Assembly (NCBI RefSeq): GCF_004322855.1 | Contig: NZ_CP036402.1 | Coordinates: 3,906,001-3,970,000, forward strand | DNA from: Egibacter rhizosphaerae | GTDB taxonomy: Bacteria > Actinomycetota > Nitriliruptoria > Euzebyales > Egibacteraceae | DNA: 64,000 nt | Direction: 5' to 3' | In this document: piece after piece, positions 23,606 through 32,799 of the stretch | How positions within the stretch are numbered: position 1 is the first letter of the stretch | Layout of the letters: the number at the start of each line of letters is the position of its first letter | The notes under the pieces: generated by a model | Databases searched by the model: none | The model's input: the letters and a program-made list of their open reading frames with translations, nothing else | Told to the model about the DNA's origin: nothing | Made by a program: the position numbers and the translations under genes

Positions 23606-26600
23606 ATGCAGACCACCGACGAGGCGCTCACCGCGGTCGGCACCGCCGAGGACGACGCGGGGCTGCGCATCCGCCGCTTCTTCACCCGCGACGACGTCCA
23701 GCCCTACGACGAGCTCGAGTGGGAGCTGCGCGACGCCGTCATCAGCGATTGGAAGTCCGGCGAGGTCGCGTTCGAGCAGCGCGGCGTGGAGTTCCCGACG
23801 AGCTGGTCGATGAACGCGACCACGATCGTGGCCCAGAAGTACTTTCGGGGGCACCTCGGCACGCCGGAACGCGAGCGCAGCGTCAAGCACATGATCGACC
23901 GGGTCGCCGACACCATCACGCGGTGGGGGCTCGAGGGCGGCTACTTCGCGGACGAGAGCTCGGCCGAGGTCTTCAACCACGAGCTCAAGCACCTGCTCGT
24001 GACCCAGAAGGCGGCGTTCAACAGCCCGGTGTGGTTCAACTGCGGCACCGAGGACAAGCCGCAGTGCTCGGCGTGCTTCATCCTCTCGGTCGAGGACACG
24101 ATGACGTCGATCCTCAACTGGTACTACGAGGAAGGCGTCATCTTCAAGGGTGGTTCCGGCAGCGGGGTGAACCTCTCGAAGATCCGGTCGAGCAAGGAGA
24201 AGCTGCGCGGCGGCGGCGAGGCGAGCGGGCCCGTGTCGTTCATGCGCGGCGCCGACGCTTCGGCCGGGACGATCAAGTCTGGCGGCAAGACCCGTCGCGC
24301 AGCGAAGATGGTGATCCTCGACGTCGACCACCCCGACGTCGAGGAGTTCATCTGGTGCAAGCGCAACGAGGAGCAGAAGGCTGCCGCCCTCGCCGCCGCC
24401 GGCTTCGACATGGGCTTCGACGGCGCGGACACCGGCAGCATCCAGTACCAGAACGCGAACAACTCGGTGCGCGTCACCGACGAGTTCATGCAGGCCGCGG
24501 TGGAGAACCGAGACTTCGAGCTCAAGACCGTGACCGGCCGGGAGGCGGTCGAGCGCGTCGGCGCGCGCGACCTACTCAACCAGATCGCGCAGGCGGCCTG
24601 GGAGTGTGCAGACCCAGGGGTGCAGTACGACACCACGATCAACGACTGGCACACCACGCCGAACGCGGGGCGGATCAACGGCTCGAACCCTTGCTTCCCC
24701 GGCTCGGCACGCGTGCACACCGATAAGGGCCTCGTTCGCTTCGAAGAACTGACGCGTCGGGTGCAGCAGGGTGAGACCTTCGGGGTGTACACCCACGATG
24801 CCACGAATGCGGAGGCCCCCTCGACCCGCGTCGAGCTGACCTCGCCCGAGGCGTTCATGGTCACCGGCCGCAACCCGATCGTGCGGCTGCGATTCTCGAA
24901 CGGACAGGAGCTCCGCTGCACGCCGAACCACAGCATCTGGACCACGAACCGCGGCTACGTGGCGGCCGAGGATCTGACGCCTGAGGACCGGGTGCTCGCA
25001 CTCGATGTCGCCACCCCCGCTTCCCAGGCTGATCAAGCGCTGCCGGTGCGGACCGACCTCGCGGCCTACCGCGAGAAGGGAGATCGAGCGAAGGAGCTTC
25101 GCCTGCCCGAGAAGTGGAGCGACGAGCTCGCGCACTACCTCGGGTGGCACACCGGCGACGGCTCTGTGTCGGGGAACTGTCTCTCCACGATCTACGGCGG
25201 GGAGGAGGAGCAGACGCATCACCTCCCGCGCCACCGTGAACTCCTCGCATGGCTGAACGGTGACCAGCACCCGACTCCGTCGATGCAGGAAAACGGCACG
25301 CAGCAACTGCGGTTGACCCGCCGGCCGCTGCGGAAGTTCTTCGAGGCGCTCGGCGTCTCGGACGCGCACGCGGCGGACAAGCGGGTTCCATGGGCGGTCT
25401 TCGAGGCGCCGGAGGATGCGCAGGCCGCCTTCTTGCGTGGGCTGTTCGACGCGGACGGAACGGTGGTCGACGTGAAGACGAAGGGCGACCGCTACGTGAG
25501 CCTCGGCTCCAGCTCGCCCGAGCTTCTCCGCGACGTGCAGGTGCTGCTCACCGCCCACGGGATATCGAGCCGCATCTACGCGACGAGGGGTGCTGAGGAG
25601 CAGTCGGGCCTTTCGTACGTCCGTCGGGACGGGACAGAGGCGATCTACGCGAGCAAGCAGGCCTACCAGCTGCGGATCAGCGGGCGCTCCCTAGAGGCCT
25701 ACGCGCGGGGGATCGGGTTCGACCTCCCGGGCAAGCACGCGCGGCTAGTCGACGTGGTCGAGGCCTACAGCCGCTACGACACGGACCGCACGGTGCGGCT
25801 CGAAGATCGCACCCACGATGGTGTGGAGCTGACCTACAACCTCACCGAGCCGCGCAACCACAGCTACGTCGTTGATGGTGTCGCGGTCCGCAATTGCTCC
25901 GAGTACATGCACCTCGACAACTCGGCGTGCAACCTCGCGAGTCTAAACCTCCGCAAGTTCGAGGTCGACGGGACGTTCGACGTTGACGCGTTCAAGCGCG
26001 CCGTCGAGATCGTGTTCACCGCGCAGGAGATCATTGTCGGGAACTCGAGCTACCCGACCGAGAAGATCGAGGAGAACGCGCACCGCTTCCGCCAGCTCGG
26101 CCTCGGCTACGCGAACCTCGGCGGGCTGCTCATGAGCCAGGGCATCCCCTACGACTCCGAGGAGGGCCGCGCTTGGGCGGGCGCGGTCACCGCGCTGATG
26201 ACCGGGCACGCCTACCGCACGAGCGCCGAGCTCGCGGCCGTGCAGGGTCCGTTCGAGGGCTTCGCCGACGATCGCGAGGGCACCCTGCGGGTAATCGGCA
26301 AGCATCGCGATGCCGCCCACGACATCGACGCGGACAAGGTGCCGGCCGATCTGCTCGCGGCCGCCCAGCAGGCGTGGAACGAGGCGCACGAACTCGGCCA
26401 CGAGCACGGCATCCGCAACGCGCAGTCCTCGGTGCTCGCTCCAACCGGCACTATCGGCTTGATGATGGACTGTGACACGACCGGGGTGGAGCCCGACCTC
26501 GGCCTCGTGAAGATGAAGAAGCTCGTCGGCGGCGGGACGATGCGCATCGTCAACCAGACCGTCCCGCGGGCCCTCGACAGCCTCGGCTATCAGCCCGAGC

Positions 26601-28900
26601 AGATCGAGGCGATCGTCGACTACATCGACGAGCACTCCACCATCGAGGGCGCGCCCGGCTTCCGCGAGGAGCACCTGCCGGTGTTCGACTGCGCGATGGG
26701 GGAGCGCTCGATCTCGCCCATGGGGCACGTGCGGATGATGGGTGCGGTCCAGCCGTTCATTTCGGGAGCCATCAGCAAGTGCGTCGTCGGCGAGACGCTC
26801 GTGCCGACCGAGGACGGGCTGGTGAGGATCGAGGAGCTGCACGAGGGTGAATCGGCGGACTCGTTCCGCGACGACGTGCGGCGGGTCGCGTCCCTCGGCG
26901 GCGAGGCGAAGACCGACGCCTTCTACTACGGCGGCACGCGCAAGGTGCAGCGCGTCGTCCTGCGGTCGGGCCACGAGGTCACGGGCACCGAGAACCACCG
27001 CGTCCTCGTTGGGGGCCCGTCCGGCCTCGCGTGGCGGTACCTCGACGAGATCGAGGTCGGCGAGTACGTGGGGACGCGGTACGGCTCGGAGCTGTGGTCG
27101 GAGGTGCCCGCGCGCCTCGACGGCTTCGTGCCGAGCCCGTCGTACGGCCCCCAGAAAGCGGTGTCGCTGCCCAACGAGATGAGCGAGGAACTCGCCTTCC
27201 TGCTCGGCGCCTACTGCGCGGAGGGCAGCATCAGCCGCAGCAACTGGACGATTCGCATCACCAACCAGAACCTCGAGGTGCTCGAGCGCGTCAAGTCCGC
27301 GTTCGAGTCCCTGTTCGACGTGGATGCGAGCATCGTCGACCCGGTGGACCGCTGTGCGCACGTGGCGGTGGCCTCGAAGACGCTCGTTGAGCTCTTCGAG
27401 TTCCTCGGCTGCGGCGTGGGGGCATCCGGCAAGCGAATCCCCTCCGTGGTGCTGCGCTCGCCGCGGAGCATGGTCCTGTCGTTCCTTCAGGGGCTGTGGC
27501 TCGACGCCTACGCCGCGCCCGGTGCGATGCCGAAGTGGGCGCTGTGCGTCGACTCGCCGGAACTGCTCGATGACGTGCAGGCGGTGCTCACCAACCTTGG
27601 GGTCGTGCACAGCCGGATCGCCAAGCACAACGAGGAGCACGAGAAGACGTACGACGAGGTCTACGCGACGGGTCACCACGCGGCCCGGCTGCTGGAGCTC
27701 GTGCCGTTCCTCGAGCCCGATAAGGCCACAAGGGCCGAGCGCGTTCGCGAGCAAGCGAGCGACGGGCCCCACAACACCGCCGACGTTGTGCCCGGCATCA
27801 CGGGCAGGGAGCTGTACGACCTGATCCCCGCTGGGTACGGCGACGGGGAGGACGGACAGCCGAAGTCGGTGACCTGGCGGTTCCTGCTCGACCCGCGCAC
27901 GACGCATGTGAGCCGGCGGACCCTCGAGCGCGTCGCGGCGATTCCAGGCGTCGAACTGCCCGAGTGGCTGCAGCAGGTACTCGACGACGGCTTGCACTTC
28001 AGCCCCGTCGCGACGGTCGAGGACGCAGGGATGCGGGAGGTCTACGACCTGTCGGTGCCGTCCACCCACGCGTTCGTCGGCAACGGGATGGTCAACCACA
28101 ACACCGTCAACATGCCTGAACAGGCGACGGTCGAGGACGTCGAGGAGATCTACACCGAGGCGTGGCGCCTGGGTGTGAAGGCCCTCGCGATCTACCGGGA
28201 CAACTGCAAGGTGAGCCAGCCGCTCGCGATCGCGACGAGCGACGACAAGAAGCAGGAGGTCCCGGCCACGACCGAGGAGGCCGCCGAGCAGGGCGTGCGA
28301 CGCCGTCGCCTGCCGAAACAGCGGCCGAGCCAGACGATCTCGTTCACCGTCGGGGAGGCCGAGGGCTACCTCACCGCCGGTGAGTACCCCGGTGACGGGC
28401 TCGGCGAGATCTTCGTCAAGCTCGGCAAGCAGGGCTCGACGCTCTCGGGCGTGATGGACGCGTTCGCGATCGCGACGTCGATCGGGCTGCAGTACGGCGT
28501 GCCGCTCGAGGAGTACGTCAAGAAGTTCACGAACATGCGGTTCGAGCCCGCCGGGATGACCGACGACCCGGAGGTCAAGTTCGCCGCCAGCGTGCTCGAC
28601 TACATCTTCCGCCGGCTCGCGATCGAATACCTGCCGGCCGAGACCCGGGCCGAGCTCGGGATCTACACGATCGAGGAACGCAACGCGCAGCTGGACGCGC
28701 AGTACGGGCCCGCGCCCGGGAGCACGGAGGCGCCGAAGGCCGATCCCGAGGGGCAGACCGTGCTGCCCGTCGAGAAGGAGAGCCGTGTCGACGACATCTA
28801 CGGGGACGCGCCGATGTGCTTCTCCTGCGGGATCCGCATGCAGCGTTCCGGCGCGTGCCACGTCTGCGAGCAGTGCGGCACGACCACCGGTTGCAGTTGA
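23606..28900 (+). CDS. nrdJ: Adenosylcobalamin-dependent (class II) ribonucleotide reductase NrdJ with two inteins
   Basis: One 1764-codon frame: exteins of 362, 295 and 265 residues (about 922 aa after splicing) plus inteins of 401 and 441 residues. Extein motifs include redox Cys in PQCSAC, the radical/redox Cys pair in NPC-SEYMHLDNSAC (11 residues apart, as in class II enzymes), SSVLAPTGTIGLMMDCDTTG, AISK-TVNMPEQ, and a C-terminal zinc-type CFSCG...CHVCEQCG with the final Cys of GCS. It makes deoxynucleotides with B12 as radical source, independent of oxygen. ATG 23606 has AGGAG 6 nt upstream. Without splicing both active-site loops would be broken, so the inteins must be active if this is the only reductase. 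Confidence 0.97.
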   Translation: MQTTDEALTAVGTAEDDAGLRIRRFFTRDDVQPYDELEWELRDAVISDWKSGEVAFEQRGVEFPTSWSMNATTIVAQKYFRGHLGTPERERSVKHMIDRVADTITRWGLEGGYFADESSAEVFNHELKHLLVTQKAAFNSPVWFNCGTEDKPQCSACFILSVEDTMTSILNWYYEEGVIFKGGSGSGVNLSKIRSSKEKLRGGGEASGPVSFMRGADASAGTIKSGGKTRRAAKMVILDVDHPDVEEFIWCKRNEEQKAAALAAAGFDMGFDGADTGSIQYQNANNSVRVTDEFMQAAVENRDFELKTVTGREAVERVGARDLLNQIAQAAWECADPGVQYDTTINDWHTTPNAGRINGSNPCFPGSARVHTDKGLVRFEELTRRVQQGETFGVYTHDATNAEAPSTRVELTSPEAFMVTGRNPIVRLRFSNGQELRCTPNHSIWTTNRGYVAAEDLTPEDRVLALDVATPASQADQALPVRTDLAAYREKGDRAKELRLPEKWSDELAHYLGWHTGDGSVSGNCLSTIYGGEEEQTHHLPRHRELLAWLNGDQHPTPSMQENGTQQLRLTRRPLRKFFEALGVSDAHAADKRVPWAVFEAPEDAQAAFLRGLFDADGTVVDVKTKGDRYVSLGSSSPELLRDVQVLLTAHGISSRIYATRGAEEQSGLSYVRRDGTEAIYASKQAYQLRISGRSLEAYARGIGFDLPGKHARLVDVVEAYSRYDTDRTVRLEDRTHDGVELTYNLTEPRNHSYVVDGVAVRNCSEYMHLDNSACNLASLNLRKFEVDGTFDVDAFKRAVEIVFTAQEIIVGNSSYPTEKIEENAHRFRQLGLGYANLGGLLMSQGIPYDSEEGRAWAGAVTALMTGHAYRTSAELAAVQGPFEGFADDREGTLRVIGKHRDAAHDIDADKVPADLLAAAQQAWNEAHELGHEHGIRNAQSSVLAPTGTIGLMMDCDTTGVEPDLGLVKMKKLVGGGTMRIVNQTVPRALDSLGYQPEQIEAIVDYIDEHSTIEGAPGFREEHLPVFDCAMGERSISPMGHVRMMGAVQPFISGAISKCVVGETLVPTEDGLVRIEELHEGESADSFRDDVRRVASLGGEAKTDAFYYGGTRKVQRVVLRSGHEVTGTENHRVLVGGPSGLAWRYLDEIEVGEYVGTRYGSELWSEVPARLDGFVPSPSYGPQKAVSLPNEMSEELAFLLGAYCAEGSISRSNWTIRITNQNLEVLERVKSAFESLFDVDASIVDPVDRCAHVAVASKTLVELFEFLGCGVGASGKRIPSVVLRSPRSMVLSFLQGLWLDAYAAPGAMPKWALCVDSPELLDDVQAVLTNLGVVHSRIAKHNEEHEKTYDEVYATGHHAARLLELVPFLEPDKATRAERVREQASDGPHNTADVVPGITGRELYDLIPAGYGDGEDGQPKSVTWRFLLDPRTTHVSRRTLERVAAIPGVELPEWLQQVLDDGLHFSPVATVEDAGMREVYDLSVPSTHAFVGNGMVNHNTVNMPEQATVEDVEEIYTEAWRLGVKALAIYRDNCKVSQPLAIATSDDKKQEVPATTEEAAEQGVRRRRLPKQRPSQTISFTVGEAEGYLTAGEYPGDGLGEIFVKLGKQGSTLSGVMDAFAIATSIGLQYGVPLEEYVKKFTNMRFEPAGMTDDPEVKFAASVLDYIFRRLAIEYLPAETRAELGIYTIEERNAQLDAQYGPAPGSTEAPKADPEGQTVLPVEKESRVDDIYGDAPMCFSCGIRMQRSGACHVCEQCGTTTGCS
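24692..25894 (+). other. Intein 1 in NrdJ (401 aa, LAGLIDADG)
   Basis: It covers residues 363-763, between SNP and CSEYM. It starts with Cys (CFPGSARVHTDKGLVRFEEL) and has Hint block B TPNH. LAGLIDADG-type blocks are YLGWHTGDGS and FLRGLFDADG. It ends GVAVRN before Cys+1. The Cys+1 residue is the predicted thiyl-radical cysteine of the reductase. The penultimate residue is Arg (codon CGC) where most inteins have His. The homing endonuclease motifs look intact. Confidence 0.93.
26780..28102 (+). other. Intein 2 in NrdJ (441 aa, LAGLIDADG, second block divergent)
   Basis: It covers residues 1059-1499, between AISK and TVNMPEQ. It starts Cys-VVGETLVPTEDGLVRIEEL, has block B TENH, and ends AFVGNGMVNHN before Thr+1, so all splice residues are standard. 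The first LAGLIDADG-like block is FLLGAYCAEGS. The second reads FLQGLWLDAYAAPG, lacking the usual ADG, so the endonuclease may be weakened or lost. Confidence 0.93.
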
Positions 28901-28917
28901 TGTGAACCGTCAGACCG

Positions 28918-28984
28918 GTGGCACCGGATCCGTCAAGTCGGTGTCACCGGTCCGTCAAGCGAGTGTCAGTGGATCTGTCAATAG
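28918..28984. repeat. Three degenerate 22-bp direct repeats after nrdJ
   Basis: Units start at 28918, 28941 and 28963 with the core GTGTCACCGGATCCGTCAAG. They begin 17 bp after the nrdJ stop. Repeated TG-starting units are typical of the multiple terminal repeats of IS21-like elements, so this may be a relic of an insertion-sequence end (inference). The rest of 28985-29062 holds only the ribosome-binding site of the next gene. Confidence 0.7.
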
Positions 28985-29062
28985 TGACATCCATCACGGC
29001 GCAGCCGAAGACAAGGCCGCCCCCGGTCCCGCTGCCGTAAGTAGACGTGGGAGGTGAAGTGC

Positions 29063-29287
29063 ATGGCCGGAAAGCAAGGAGAGCGCGACACGTACAAGTA
29101 CCGGTATGTCGATTCGGGGGGTCGCGTAAAACATTCAGGTATAACGAACAACCCGGATCGACGCGAAGGGGAGTTGAACCGCAAGTACGGATCGGGACAA
29201 CTGCAGAAGGTTGGTCGCCGCACCACGCGCGAGGCCGCGAAGGAGTGGGAAGGCAGACGCCCGAGTGCGAAGCGGGCCGGCCCTTAG
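29063..29287 (+). CDS. Small GIY-YIG-like protein
   Basis: 74 aa from ATG 29063, with GGGAGG 8 nt upstream; GTG 29054 is an alternative. KYRYVDSGGRVKHSGITNNPDRREGELNRKYG resembles the GIY-YIG nuclease core (Y...GIT-N-PxRR--EH). The downstream Glu-bearing part of a full nuclease is very short, so catalysis is uncertain. It is highly charged and cytosolic. It is visibly AT-richer than the nrdJ side and precedes a predicted nuclease gene by 50 nt in the same direction, suggesting joint acquisition. Confidence 0.62.
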   Translation: MAGKQGERDTYKYRYVDSGGRVKHSGITNNPDRREGELNRKYGSGQLQKVGRRTTREAAKEWEGRRPSAKRAGP

Positions 29288-29337
29288 GGGTGGGCTTGGT
29301 GGAACTCGCGGAGCAGCCAGGGGAGATTGTATAACCG

Positions 29338-30777
29338 ATGCTGTTCAGCGAGTTCTACCAGATTACGAAGGGCCAGGAGGACGACTGGTTCGACACGATC
29401 CTGGATGCAGATACGAAGCTGTTCATCGACCCCTTTCTGCTCTATAGGGAAGATGAACTCCCCGATTCACACTGGTACGGCGCACATAGCGGCATCATTG
29501 AGCACTTCCAGCAGGTCTTCGAGCTACTAGCACTTGCCGGCTGTGATTCCAAGCATCTGCCGTATCGCGTAGCCCTCGGTGCACTGTCGTTTCGGGAACC
29601 ACGCGAGTTTTGCCTGGGGTATACCGCCGAAGGGACCAGGGGTGCCGGCAGCGCAAAGGGCTTCGCTAAGCTCATAGCAGCTGCGATGTGTGATGCGATC
29701 AGGCGTGGAAGGAAGGAACTCCGGCATTTCGAGGAGCTTGGAGTGCTTCACGAAGGGATCGGTCCAGATCGCATCTCGGACATGGCATGCACTGTTCTCA
29801 AGAGCAAGTTCCTATCGTACACGCAAACCGTGGCACGTCGGCATGGGCTCCAGCTGGACACGCACAAACTCCCTAATGCGTCCTTCGACAATGAGGCGTA
29901 TTCCTGGAGGTCGGACTCCGTCTGGCTGCCAACGAATCCTTACAGCAGTGGTCCGCTCCTACTGACGCCTGCGCGGTTTCTGAACGATTTGCCGACGTTG
30001 AATGCTGATGACTGGTGGGCTGCGCAGGAAGCCCACGAACTACGGGATCGCTTCAACCTGGACGTCGTCCGGAGGGTGGATAAGAAGACCATAGTTGATC
30101 TTGCAAATCGCGATCCTGCTGCAGTGGAGGCATGGGCCAAGCGTCGGGAAAGCGAACGTGCAAGACCGTACGACCTCCGCCGTGATGCCAATGGTGTGTA
30201 CCGTTGGGATATTGAGTCTCGTAAGTATGCTGAAGAAAACCCCATAAGCCTTGCAGATCCTGAAACGCACGAGCAGTTCCTCGACGTCGTGGAAGCGCTT
30301 ATCGAGCGCTTTCGGCATTTCGTTGAGAACGACGGTGGTTGGAGGTTGCTTTGGGACGATAGGGGGCCGAAGCCGGAATCGGCTGCGCAACTCCTATTTC
30401 GAGGGCTAGCAAGGACCTATTGCGAGCTACATGGAATTAACGTCGACCGTGAGGTGCTGCTCGGTGACGGGGCGGTCGACTTCAAGTTCTCGTCCGGGTA
30501 TGAGCATCGAGCTCTGCTGGAAGTGAAGAAGGTTGAGAATGGCAAGTTTTGGAATGGGCTGAACGCTCAGCTGCCGAAGTATTTGGAGGACGATCGTTGT
30601 GTGGACGGGTGGCTATTGGCAGTTCGGTTTCAGGGAAGGGGTGTATCCGTCCAGCGTGTAAAGAATATCCCTGAAGCCGTTGACTCAGTGTCGCAGAGGC
30701 TCGGGATGAACATTCGCTACAGCCTTGTAGACGCGCGCCGTTCGCCGTCTGCATCGAATATGTCGACTCCGAAGTGA
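29338..30777 (+). CDS. Predicted PD-(D/E)XK nuclease, possible defence gene
   Basis: 479 aa, and base composition much less GC-rich than the flanking genes, which points to transfer. The N-terminal part (DDWFDTILDADTKLFIDPFLL; GIGPDRISDMACTVLKSKF) is a domain I know only from uncharacterised proteins. The C-terminal third holds a restriction-endonuclease-like core: GAVDFKF...ALLEVKKV, with Asp near residue 380 and Glu-x-Lys near 395. A conserved-looking Gln follows in NAQLPKYLEDD. No methylase or helicase is next to it. It probably cuts nucleic acid; a role against phage or plasmids is inference from composition and neighbourhood. ATG 29338 has a somewhat distant GGGGAG. Confidence 0.68.
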   Translation: MLFSEFYQITKGQEDDWFDTILDADTKLFIDPFLLYREDELPDSHWYGAHSGIIEHFQQVFELLALAGCDSKHLPYRVALGALSFREPREFCLGYTAEGTRGAGSAKGFAKLIAAAMCDAIRRGRKELRHFEELGVLHEGIGPDRISDMACTVLKSKFLSYTQTVARRHGLQLDTHKLPNASFDNEAYSWRSDSVWLPTNPYSSGPLLLTPARFLNDLPTLNADDWWAAQEAHELRDRFNLDVVRRVDKKTIVDLANRDPAAVEAWAKRRESERARPYDLRRDANGVYRWDIESRKYAEENPISLADPETHEQFLDVVEALIERFRHFVENDGGWRLLWDDRGPKPESAAQLLFRGLARTYCELHGINVDREVLLGDGAVDFKFSSGYEHRALLEVKKVENGKFWNGLNAQLPKYLEDDRCVDGWLLAVRFQGRGVSVQRVKNIPEAVDSVSQRLGMNIRYSLVDARRSPSASNMSTPK

Positions 30778-30846: not shown

Positions 30847-31566
30847 TCAGGGGGAACTGGGTAGGGCTGCACTTTCGGGAAACAAGGCGGCCATCGTCTC
30901 ACGGCTGGGTCGCGGGGGTTCGCCTCCGAGGATGCCGGCGTGAAGGAGGCGGGCGAGGGCGACGTGTTCGTTGTTGGTGAGCCGCTGGGTGTCAAGCTCG
31001 CCGTCGCATAGGGCGCGGTGCAGCAGTTGAGCAGCGGTTCGGGGGAGCTGTCGGCGGGTGTGCTCGGCGCGGATCGCGTCGCGCAGCGCGTCGGGTTCGG
31101 TGAGGTGGGTGGCCGGGTGCAGGACGAGGTCGCCGCGGTGGTGCTGGAGGGTGGCGCCGGTGGTCGCGAGCAGTTGGGCGAGTTGGTCGGCAGCGCGATC
31201 GGTACGGTTGAGGGTCCAGCCGAGGCTGGTGGCGGCGGTGTCGCGTGGGAGCCGGTGGTCATCGGCGTGGTGCGGCAGCGCGCCGAGCGCTGCGGCGTCC
31301 GCTTCGAGGCTGTCGCCTGCGTGTTCTGTTCGGTCGTGTGCCTCGGAGGCGGGCGCGGCGGGATTGTCGGTCAGGAGCGCGTGGAGGGGCAGCGCGAGCG
31401 CGTCGGCGACGCGGTGCGCGAAGTGGAGGGTGAGGTGCTCGTGGTTGGAGCCGGCTTCGAGCGCGCTAATGACGACGGATGTGACCGCGAGGTCGCGCGC
31501 GAGGGCGCGTTGCGAGAGGCCGAGCTCGTGGCGGCGAGTCGCGATGCGTGTGGCGTCGAGCGGCAT
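30847..31566 (-). CDS. XRE-family helix-turn-helix protein
   Basis: 239 aa. Residues 5-65 are a Cro/CI-type HTH (RHELGLSQRALARDLAVTSVVISALEAG). The rest (70-239) is Ala/Leu/His-rich with a winged-helix-like stretch (SLGWTLNRTDRAADQLAQLLATTGATLQ). Its ATG overlaps the stop of the upstream recombinase-like gene. It is probably a regulator or target-binding partner of that gene. It is convergent with the nuclease gene. Confidence 0.75.
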   Translation of the reverse strand: MPLDATRIATRRHELGLSQRALARDLAVTSVVISALEAGSNHEHLTLHFAHRVADALALPLHALLTDNPAAPASEAHDRTEHAGDSLEADAAALGALPHHADDHRLPRDTAATSLGWTLNRTDRAADQLAQLLATTGATLQHHRGDLVLHPATHLTEPDALRDAIRAEHTRRQLPRTAAQLLHRALCDGELDTQRLTNNEHVALARLLHAGILGGEPPRPSRETMAALFPESAALPSSP

Positions 31567-32423
31567 CAGGCGGCCTTTGACGAGCCGAGGTTGGTGAGGG
31601 CGAATCCGCGCCCGGCGAGCCAGCGGCGATCTGCGGGCTGGCGACGTACGGCTTGCCCGTTCAGCAGCGGCACGCCGAGCTCGCGTGTGGCGTCGCCCAG
31701 GGCGGTGGCGGCGGCGCGTTGCCCGAGGGGTTGGCCGCGGGGGTCGGTGAGCAGCGGGTCGGTGTCGGTTGCCCCGTGGGTGAGTCGTCGGAGTCGTTTG
31801 GCGCGCAGGAACGGTTCGCTGCCGGTGGGCATCTCCATGGGTCCGTGCGCGCCGGTCACGTAGCGGCCGTCCGGGTCGGCGTCGGCAAGGGTCAGCGAGC
31901 GCAGGTCGTCGATGGCCAAGCCGGCGGCGGTGAGCGCGCATACCAGCGCGCGGTGCGGGGGCCGGTAGGCGCGCAGCGCGGTCCACGTCCGCGGATCGCG
32001 GACGGCGCGGCGAGGTGCGGCGGGTTGGGCCGCGAGCAGCTCGTAGAGGTCGAGGGAGGCGAGGGTGCCGCGCGTGAAGCAGGCGGCTTGCACGGCGCGC
32101 ACGCGGGTGGCGAGTTCGGCTTGGGTGGCGGTGTCGGCGATCTCGTCGGCGAGGAGGGTGCGCAGCACCGCCTCGGTGGCCCCGTCGCGGTCGATGCGCT
32201 GGCGGGTGCGCTCGAGCGTGTCCCGGTAGCAGGCGTCGAAGACGGCGAACTTGCCGAGTCCGGGTTCGCCGCTGACCAGGCCGATCTCGCGCAGCTCGAC
32301 GACTTGCCGGGCGAGTACGTGGGTCTTGCGCAGCGCGGTGGTGCGAACCACCGCAGCGTCGTCGACGCCGGCGAGGTGGCGTCCGCCGGCCTGCGGTTGT
32401 GGTGCGGCGGTGGGGCTGGTCAT
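31566..32423 (-). CDS. Chimeric protein: truncated AAA P-loop N terminus plus recombinase-like C terminus
   Basis: 285 aa from ATG 32423 (AGGAG 8 nt upstream). Residues ~25-58 (TTALRKTHVLARQVVELREIGLVSGEPGLGK) look like the start of a TniB/IstB-type ATPase, but the P-loop Lys is followed by Phe instead of Thr and the remaining ATPase motifs are absent. From about residue 140 (TWTALRAYRPPHRALVCALTAAGLAIDDLRSLTLADADPDGRYV) the sequence resembles the core of tyrosine recombinases. I cannot find the R...HxxR...Y catalytic set. It is likely a rearranged mobile-element gene, perhaps no longer catalytic. Confidence 0.5.
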   Translation of the reverse strand: MTSPTAAPQPQAGGRHLAGVDDAAVVRTTALRKTHVLARQVVELREIGLVSGEPGLGKFAVFDACYRDTLERTRQRIDRDGATEAVLRTLLADEIADTATQAELATRVRAVQAACFTRGTLASLDLYELLAAQPAAPRRAVRDPRTWTALRAYRPPHRALVCALTAAGLAIDDLRSLTLADADPDGRYVTGAHGPMEMPTGSEPFLRAKRLRRLTHGATDTDPLLTDPRGQPLGQRAAATALGDATRELGVPLLNGQAVRRQPADRRWLAGRGFALTNLGSSKAA

Positions 32424-32520
32424 GGGCGCGGCTCCTGGGAAGGGGGCGTCGGTAGGGCGGCGTGCTACTGGTCGGCGAGGCCAAGCCAGCTTTCGGCTTG
32501 CTCGTCGTCGGGGTCGTCGC

Positions 32521-32799
32521 TTAAGGCTGGGTGGGGACTGGATCGTCGATGTGCGGGCTGGCGGGCGGGTCGGCGAGGTCGAGCAGGTCTTGGTCCCCCG
32601 GGCCGGTCGTCCGAACGCGTCCGCATCGCGGATGAGTACCGGGCTGCGGGCCCTTGCTCCCCGCGCGCACCCCGCATGCGGCGCACCACGCCCGCTCGAT
32701 GGTGGTCTCGACCACGAGCTCGACCTGCCGGGCCTCGAGCACGCGGAAACCTTCGAGCCCGAGCACGACAGCATCAGCTGCACTACCCTCAATCACCAC
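32521..32799 (-). pseudogene. ISL3-family transposase, N-terminal fragment with frameshift
   Basis: GTG at 32799. ADAVVLGLEGFRVLEARQVELVVETT...WCAACGVRAGSKG matches the N-terminal zinc-binding region of ISL3 transposases. The natural continuation VLIRDADAFGRPARG lies in another frame (about 32590-32640), so a frameshift is present. Nothing of the DDE core is left. Not functional as a transposase. Confidence 0.6.

Follow-up and report, generated by a model that had tools for sequence, protein, structure and literature searches.

The region directly downstream of nrdJ in Egibacter rhizosphaerae is probably the remnant of a Tn7-like element that would use the 3' end of nrdJ as its attachment site and that carries an intact candidate defence nuclease as cargo. 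This reading draws on the integrity of the nuclease gene, on the nuclease residues and fold class of its product, on the transposon context, on recurrence at nrdJ in related genomes and on the defence genes that neighbour its homologues. The window, i.e., the whole stretch of 64,000 nucleotides that was analyzed, belongs to a genome of 4.64 Mb represented by a single contig, and the features under discussion are listed in Table 1.

Table 1. Features of the nrdJ region in the window, and stand-alone relatives of the N-terminal part of the large protein
Feature	Position	Strand	Remarks
nrdJ, class II (B12-dependent) ribonucleotide reductase, two inteins	23606..28900	+	stop codon abuts putative transposon end
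Left transposon-end-like array, ~22-nt repeats (TGTCA-N8-GTCAA type)	28901..28988	+	begins at first base after nrdJ stop
Small ORF	29063..29287	+	74 aa, intact
Large ORF	29338..30777	+	479 aa, intact
N-terminal part of large protein, residues 1-307	29338..30258	+	PDC-M36A-like; also exists alone, ~305-315 aa
C-terminal PD-(D/E)XK nuclease domain (predicted), residues 308-479	30259..30777	+	E347, D381, E395, K397, Q411, Y415
XRE-type HTH gene of transposon module	30847..31569	-	HTH_31, 1.6e-5; 36%, E 7e-16 to HTH protein of G039
Chimeric pseudogene, TnsC N-terminus (Walker A region) and accessory C-terminal half, in frame	31566..32504	-	
Stand-alone N-terminal-domain proteins	L141:3992-4936, L142:3992-4906, L143:4001-4948		plasmids

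The stop codon of the small ORF (29287) and the ATG of the large ORF (29338) are separated by 50 nt, and each gene is preceded by a ribosome-binding site, i.e., GGGAGGTGAAG ahead of the ATG at 29063, which represents a good Shine-Dalgarno sequence, and GGGGAGA ahead of that at 29338. The initial annotation had described two genes running in one direction, 50 nt apart and AT-richer than their surroundings, with no methylase beside the nuclease gene, and each of these points is borne out. The GC content is 0.58-0.59 across 29-31 kb as compared to approximately 0.70 in the flanks, while third-position GC amounts to 0.68 in the small and 0.63 in the large ORF versus 0.92 in the neighbouring nrdJ, indicating that both ORFs are recent arrivals or are under different selection. 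Furthermore, neither the ORF list nor Pfam revealed a DNA methyltransferase gene in the interval from nrdJ to the remains of the transposon.

The identity of nrdJ is supported by Pfam matches to Ribonuc_red_lgC (5e-133) and Ribonuc_red_2_N (9e-19), in addition to Intein_splicing in two stretches and LAGLIDADG_3. The window copy thus harbours two intein insertions with LAGLIDADG domains; nrdJ is intein-free in several relatives (frames of ~940-990 aa), while frames of 1360-1930 aa in others may also hold inteins. For the array that follows, TCCGTCAAGNNNGTGTCA is matched three times in the window at up to two mismatches (0.14 expected), with exact copies at positions 28929 and 28951, and the self-repeat score of the array was reached in none of 300 shuffles. 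When the 115 bases behind nrdJ were compared with shuffles in 42 genomes for a self-repeat of ~21-23 nt, seven sites exceeded them at p<0.01, where ~0.4 would be expected, namely those of the window genome and of relatives G001, G018, G039, G042, G055 and G059, all six of which possess an array of the same layout. Similar arrays were recognized by eye in G007, G028, G051 and G057, and several genomes have a terminator behind the array. No transposase was detectable in the fetched stretch of several array-bearing relatives; such arrays may be solo ends, or could have another origin. Specifically, at L118/L092 (G042), L121 (G055) and L076 (G001) an array directly follows the nrdJ stop codon, and inspection of 11-19 kb brought no Tn7-like genes to light.

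Two of these relatives possess a block of transposon genes downstream of nrdJ. In G039, a gene for a 44%-identical nuclease lies directly behind nrdJ with the end array in between, and a 163-aa gene followed by genes for an HTH protein, an accessory protein of ~400 aa, TnsC, TnsB and a TnsA-like protein are arranged in this order downstream, on the opposite strand. The same block is found in the same order in G059, 15-19 kb downstream of nrdJ, with the end repeats at the stop codon. TnsB carries rve and Mu-transpos_C domains in both genomes (1e-12 in G039), while TnsC matches TniB at 8e-7 in G039 and at 0.002 in G059. The TnsA candidate fits by position and by a D...E-x-K motif, with 36% between the G039 and G059 proteins, the corresponding HMM being silent. 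On the evidence of these predicted products, the G039 and G059 elements are Tn7-like, with TnsB and a TniB-type TnsC. The TniQ profile PF06527 was silent throughout, including in 14 control genomes. Among 61 genomes, the accessory protein is strongly matched in three only, namely G039, G059 and the genome of the window, each time downstream of nrdJ.

End repeats are present at both ends, in inverted orientation, in G039, and at the left end alone in the window and in G059. The inverted copy in G039 lies 24 kb away and represents the right end of an element of ~24 kb, immediately beyond which a second left-end array and terminator occur that closely resemble those behind nrdJ (L101:16781-16990). 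This suggests that the G039 element came to lie ahead of an end left by an earlier insertion, and hence that the site was used repeatedly. The flanks are nrdJ-like on both sides, though not identical (GCTGA / CGTGA), and no clean 5-bp target duplication can be called. Besides the nuclease gene, the cargo of the G039 element includes a type IIG restriction-modification gene and a GIY-YIG gene.

The order nrdJ, end array, nuclease, HTH and accessory gene is common to the window and G039. The final component in the window is a chimera, residues 41-93 of which match the G039 TnsC (43%, 5e-9) and residues 86-306 of which match the G039 accessory protein (32%, 2e-12; 1.9e-19 in a whole-genome search), so that it comprises 53 residues of TnsC joined to ~220 C-terminal residues of the accessory protein. 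Accordingly, TnsA and TnsB have disappeared, as has the larger part of TnsC, and the window transposon is broken. Neither TnsA nor TnsB was detected in the 64-kb window, and local alignment of the left end revealed no right end there; the window copy is therefore diagnosed by comparison with its relatives. The initial annotation had placed the two genes between repeat clusters and insertion sequence debris. The repeats on the left stand, while the debris on the right was rejected as an ordinary insertion sequence remnant, since it matches the HTH, accessory and TnsC genes of the G039 element and hence consists of Tn7-like regulator and accessory genes. A short ORF beyond it (32524-32799, - strand) may represent a fragment of an ISL3-family transposase, the N-terminus of which it resembles; Pfam returned no match for it.

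The product of the large ORF was not matched by any Pfam family. Residues 4-272 match the PADLOC model PDC-M36A (PDLC04597/PDLC04598; E 1.2e-27 for PDLC04597), although only the N-terminal 60% of this 457-position model is covered, and residues 13-473, i.e., nearly the full length, match PHROG 30194 (E=1.5e-55), to which no function is attached. The initial annotation had proposed an undescribed defence module, the large protein of which would join an uncharacterised N-terminal domain to a nuclease core. The two-part organisation and nuclease core are upheld, while the N-terminus is already represented by PDC-M36A and the entire protein by PHROG 30194, so that the protein has been described before, though not characterised. 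The name PDC-M36A itself denotes a mere candidate, and one which implies a multi-gene system; no PADLOC partner was found beside the 479-aa gene.

The six residues given for the C-terminal domain in Table 1 are invariant in an alignment of eight homologues, and their arrangement as E347, D381, E395-x-K397 and Q411-xxx-Y415 is that typical of PD-(D/E)XK nucleases which possess a QxxxY helix. In an AlphaFold2 model based on the same eight-homologue alignment (mean pLDDT 75.7), D381 and E395-x-K397 are positioned at adjacent strands (382-386 and 390-398). VIA-align of residues 308-473 returned BamHI with a Z score of 9.4 (148 residues, 3.9 A) and OkrAI with 8.9, followed by EcoT38I, EcoRV and McrC. 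No significant row was obtained when Foldseek was run on the complete models (none with E below 0.001), and sequence searches against solved structures gave chance matches only. The predicted structure and residue pattern support the assignment of the C-terminal part as a PD-(D/E)XK nuclease with a restriction-endonuclease-like fold. The nuclease residues are lost in two of eight members, those of Calothrix and Legionella, of a more diverse homologue set. The type II PD-(D/E)XK enzymes BamHI, OkrAI and EcoRV, as well as McrC, share the fold and the ExK motif of this domain, yet differ from the 479-aa protein in that identity is only 10%, in its additional N-terminal part of 300 aa and in its lack of a cognate methylase. 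The nuclease region also matches the end of the NCBIfam model for EruA, which together with HyoA represents NACHT antiphage proteins (NF058535, NF058534), across residues 330-420 (E 0.0016, or 3e-4 with the nuclease domain alone); the 479-aa protein, however, possesses no NACHT ATPase and scores far below the model cut-off, and is thus not an EruA.

A first scan of the genome collection with the single 479-aa sequence returned nothing, while a three-sequence alignment then retrieved homologues in seven reference genomes of Actinomadura, Agromyces, Streptomyces and Microbacterium (31-50% identity). Homologues were also found in two of 60 relatives of the window genome (44% and 38% identity) and in 25 plasmid records, and none among INPHARED phages at E 1e-5. 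The family of this compact protein spans Actinomycetota, Pseudomonadota, Cyanobacteriota and Bacillota, and its two parts are separable. The N-terminal part occurs alone, with no nuclease domain, on plasmids of 9-38 kb in Acinetobacter, Micrococcus and Bacillus, and the PDC-M36A model matches the Acinetobacter stand-alone protein as well as the homologues L109 and L110 and that of G039. Conversely, a 1354-aa protein of G371 (L147:2982-7043) ends in the same PD-(D/E)XK module; its NACHT-like N-terminus matches HyoA (8e-12) and its C-terminus EruA (3e-8), both far below the cut-offs. This G371 protein is a possible new NACHT antiphage protein in its own right.

The surroundings of the homologues inspected are rich in known defence genes, a point which the initial annotation had named as a check. 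For example, the Agromyces homologue has a complete type I restriction-modification system upstream and Tmn downstream; that of a Paenarthrobacter plasmid is located beside an MmeI-type methylase, a DEAD helicase and a GIY-YIG (T5orf172) gene that overlaps the homologue; SIR2 is encoded near the Rhodobacter homologue; an Eco57I-type methylase, a helicase and AbiE are neighbours in Legionella; SLFN-g3 helicases are encoded nearby in Streptomyces and Microbacterium; and conjugation genes are close by in G034. A mobile, defence-rich setting is the rule among the homologue loci inspected, this being an observation by inspection rather than a controlled enrichment. From family and neighbours together we infer a defence function, and the 479-aa protein may be regarded as an intact member of a widespread candidate anti-phage nuclease family. 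The four genes of the Paenarthrobacter plasmid (L010:74-7449), encoding the MmeI-type methylase, the DEAD helicase, the T5orf172 GIY-YIG protein and the PDC-M36A/PD-(D/E)XK homologue, are on the same strand and overlap end to start, and constitute a candidate composite system.

The 74-aa protein had been described as GIY-YIG-like, and its topology is in agreement with that view, although its match to Tox-URI2, a family with the URI/GIY-YIG fold, is weak (E=0.01, 16.6 bits, under the cut-off of 20). A single-sequence model predicts a beta-beta-alpha-beta-alpha order with a pLDDT of ~90 over residues 11-50. Foldseek with this model returned UPF0213 GIY-YIG proteins as best rows at E 0.2-0.6, none being significant, while VIA-align gave mixed rows with Z under 4. 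The protein is thus akin to small GIY-YIG proteins of the UPF0213/YhbQ type in length and in strand/helix order, but its YIG motif reads HSG and searches revealed no convincing sequence relative: none were found in plasmids, phages, IMG/VR or the 60 relatives, and a scan of 396 genomes gave matches of 16-23 bits only, none better than E 4e-4 and many of them interrupted by internal stop codons. The Tox-URI2 family search was silent throughout, in control genomes too. A minimal GIY-YIG (URI) fold is plausible on the basis of the model.

Four other explanations were weighed against that of a decayed transposon with a nuclease as cargo. That the GIY-YIG and PD-(D/E)XK proteins act jointly, as a single two-gene defence module, is improbable. 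The shared direction, 50-nt spacing and similar composition of the two genes are what such a module would show, a 397-aa T5orf172/MUG113 GIY-YIG gene overlaps the start of the Paenarthrobacter homologue, and in Rhodobacter, Microbacterium and the G039 element a GIY-YIG gene is located only a few kb away; these, however, differ from the 74-aa gene in type and position, and GIY-YIG genes are common in defence islands. A relative of the 74-aa protein was encoded beside none of 14 homologues, the 74-aa protein itself has no PADLOC match, and no neighbour was constant among the homologues. Constant pairing, the absence of which had been named beforehand as evidence against a two-gene module, is thus not observed, and the pair fails as such; the 74-aa gene is an orphan rather than a regular partner. 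It is equally doubtful that the repeats are a native regulatory element of the nrdJ 3' end, next to which an unrelated, horizontally acquired pair came to lie beside insertion sequence remnants. Terminators after the arrays in several genomes, some with no transposase nearby, are compatible with this notion, whereas the inverted copy 24 kb away in G039, right behind which another forward array and its terminator are located, is as expected for insertion at an older end; moreover, many relatives have no array after nrdJ, and the strong accessory-gene matches are confined to positions downstream of it.

The 479-aa protein might instead serve the nrdJ-targeting element in transposition itself, as its gene is inserted between the left end and the HTH gene in both the window and G039. 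This is very improbable, given that no homologue is present in the stretch read of the G059 element, which holds a complete module, that Streptomyces, Actinomadura, Agromyces and plasmids harbour homologues remote from this transposon, and that G039 already has a TnsA candidate of its own. Somewhat more credible, yet still unlikely, is a lone, type IV-like restriction enzyme whose N-terminus binds modified bases with no sensing of infection. The lack of a neighbouring methylase and the alignment of the nuclease domain with restriction enzymes and McrC above all others would fit such an enzyme, but searches of Pfam, NCBIfam and PADLOC revealed no known modification-reader domain, and the presence of the same effector module on a NACHT-like protein favours an activated effector over a plain restriction enzyme.

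The preferred reading, i.e., a transposon remnant with a defence nuclease as cargo, can be cast as the following sequence of events. A Tn7-like transposon, targeted to its attachment site, would have inserted directly after the nrdJ stop codon; its left end and regulator gene would then have been retained, while what is left of TnsC and of the accessory gene was fused into a single chimeric pseudogene. The 479-aa cargo gene would have survived intact, encoding a stand-alone candidate anti-phage protein. Its N-terminal, PDC-M36A-type part would most likely recognise a sign of infection and then free the nuclease, an activation step suggested by the modular organisation of the family, upon which the PD-(D/E)XK domain would cut DNA, either that of the invader or also that of the host as a form of abortive infection. 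The 74-aa GIY-YIG-like protein, encoded by an additional gene at this locus, might act as a small nuclease or as an accessory factor and would not be a required partner.

The elements described here resemble known Tn7-like transposons (PMC8649781, PMC10293859) in their gene order, with a TnsA candidate, TnsB and TnsC, in the Mu-transpos_C domain of TnsB and the TniB-like TnsC, in their arrays of end repeats, in the proposed insertion behind a conserved housekeeping gene and in defence cargo, such as the type IIG restriction-modification gene of G039. They differ in the proposed site, nrdJ, and in that TnsC is followed by an HTH protein of the XRE type and by a ~400-aa accessory protein; in addition, the copy in the window is broken. 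It is established that Tn7-like transposons integrate at safe sites and bring along a variety of defence genes, and their Actinobacteria-dominated clade has no experimentally characterised member (PMC8649781). In the part of the literature covered, where absence is weak evidence, no report of nrdJ as a Tn7-like attachment site and no match for PDC-M36 or for EruA with NACHT was found, nor was a report found of a phage assay for the 479-aa protein family.

It is tentatively proposed, as a wider and rather less certain possibility, that these elements represent an unreported Tn7-like lineage of high-GC bacteria, which would use the nrdJ 3' end as its site, in which HTH and accessory selectors would replace TniQ/TnsD, and which would spread anti-phage cargo including the PDC-M36A/PD-(D/E)XK nuclease. 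The major carriers of defence genes include Tn7-like transposons, the attachment sites of which show where new defence genes should be sought. If the 3' end of nrdJ is indeed such a site, the region behind nrdJ could be mined for defence cargo in many genomes, and the accessory protein would be a candidate new target selector.
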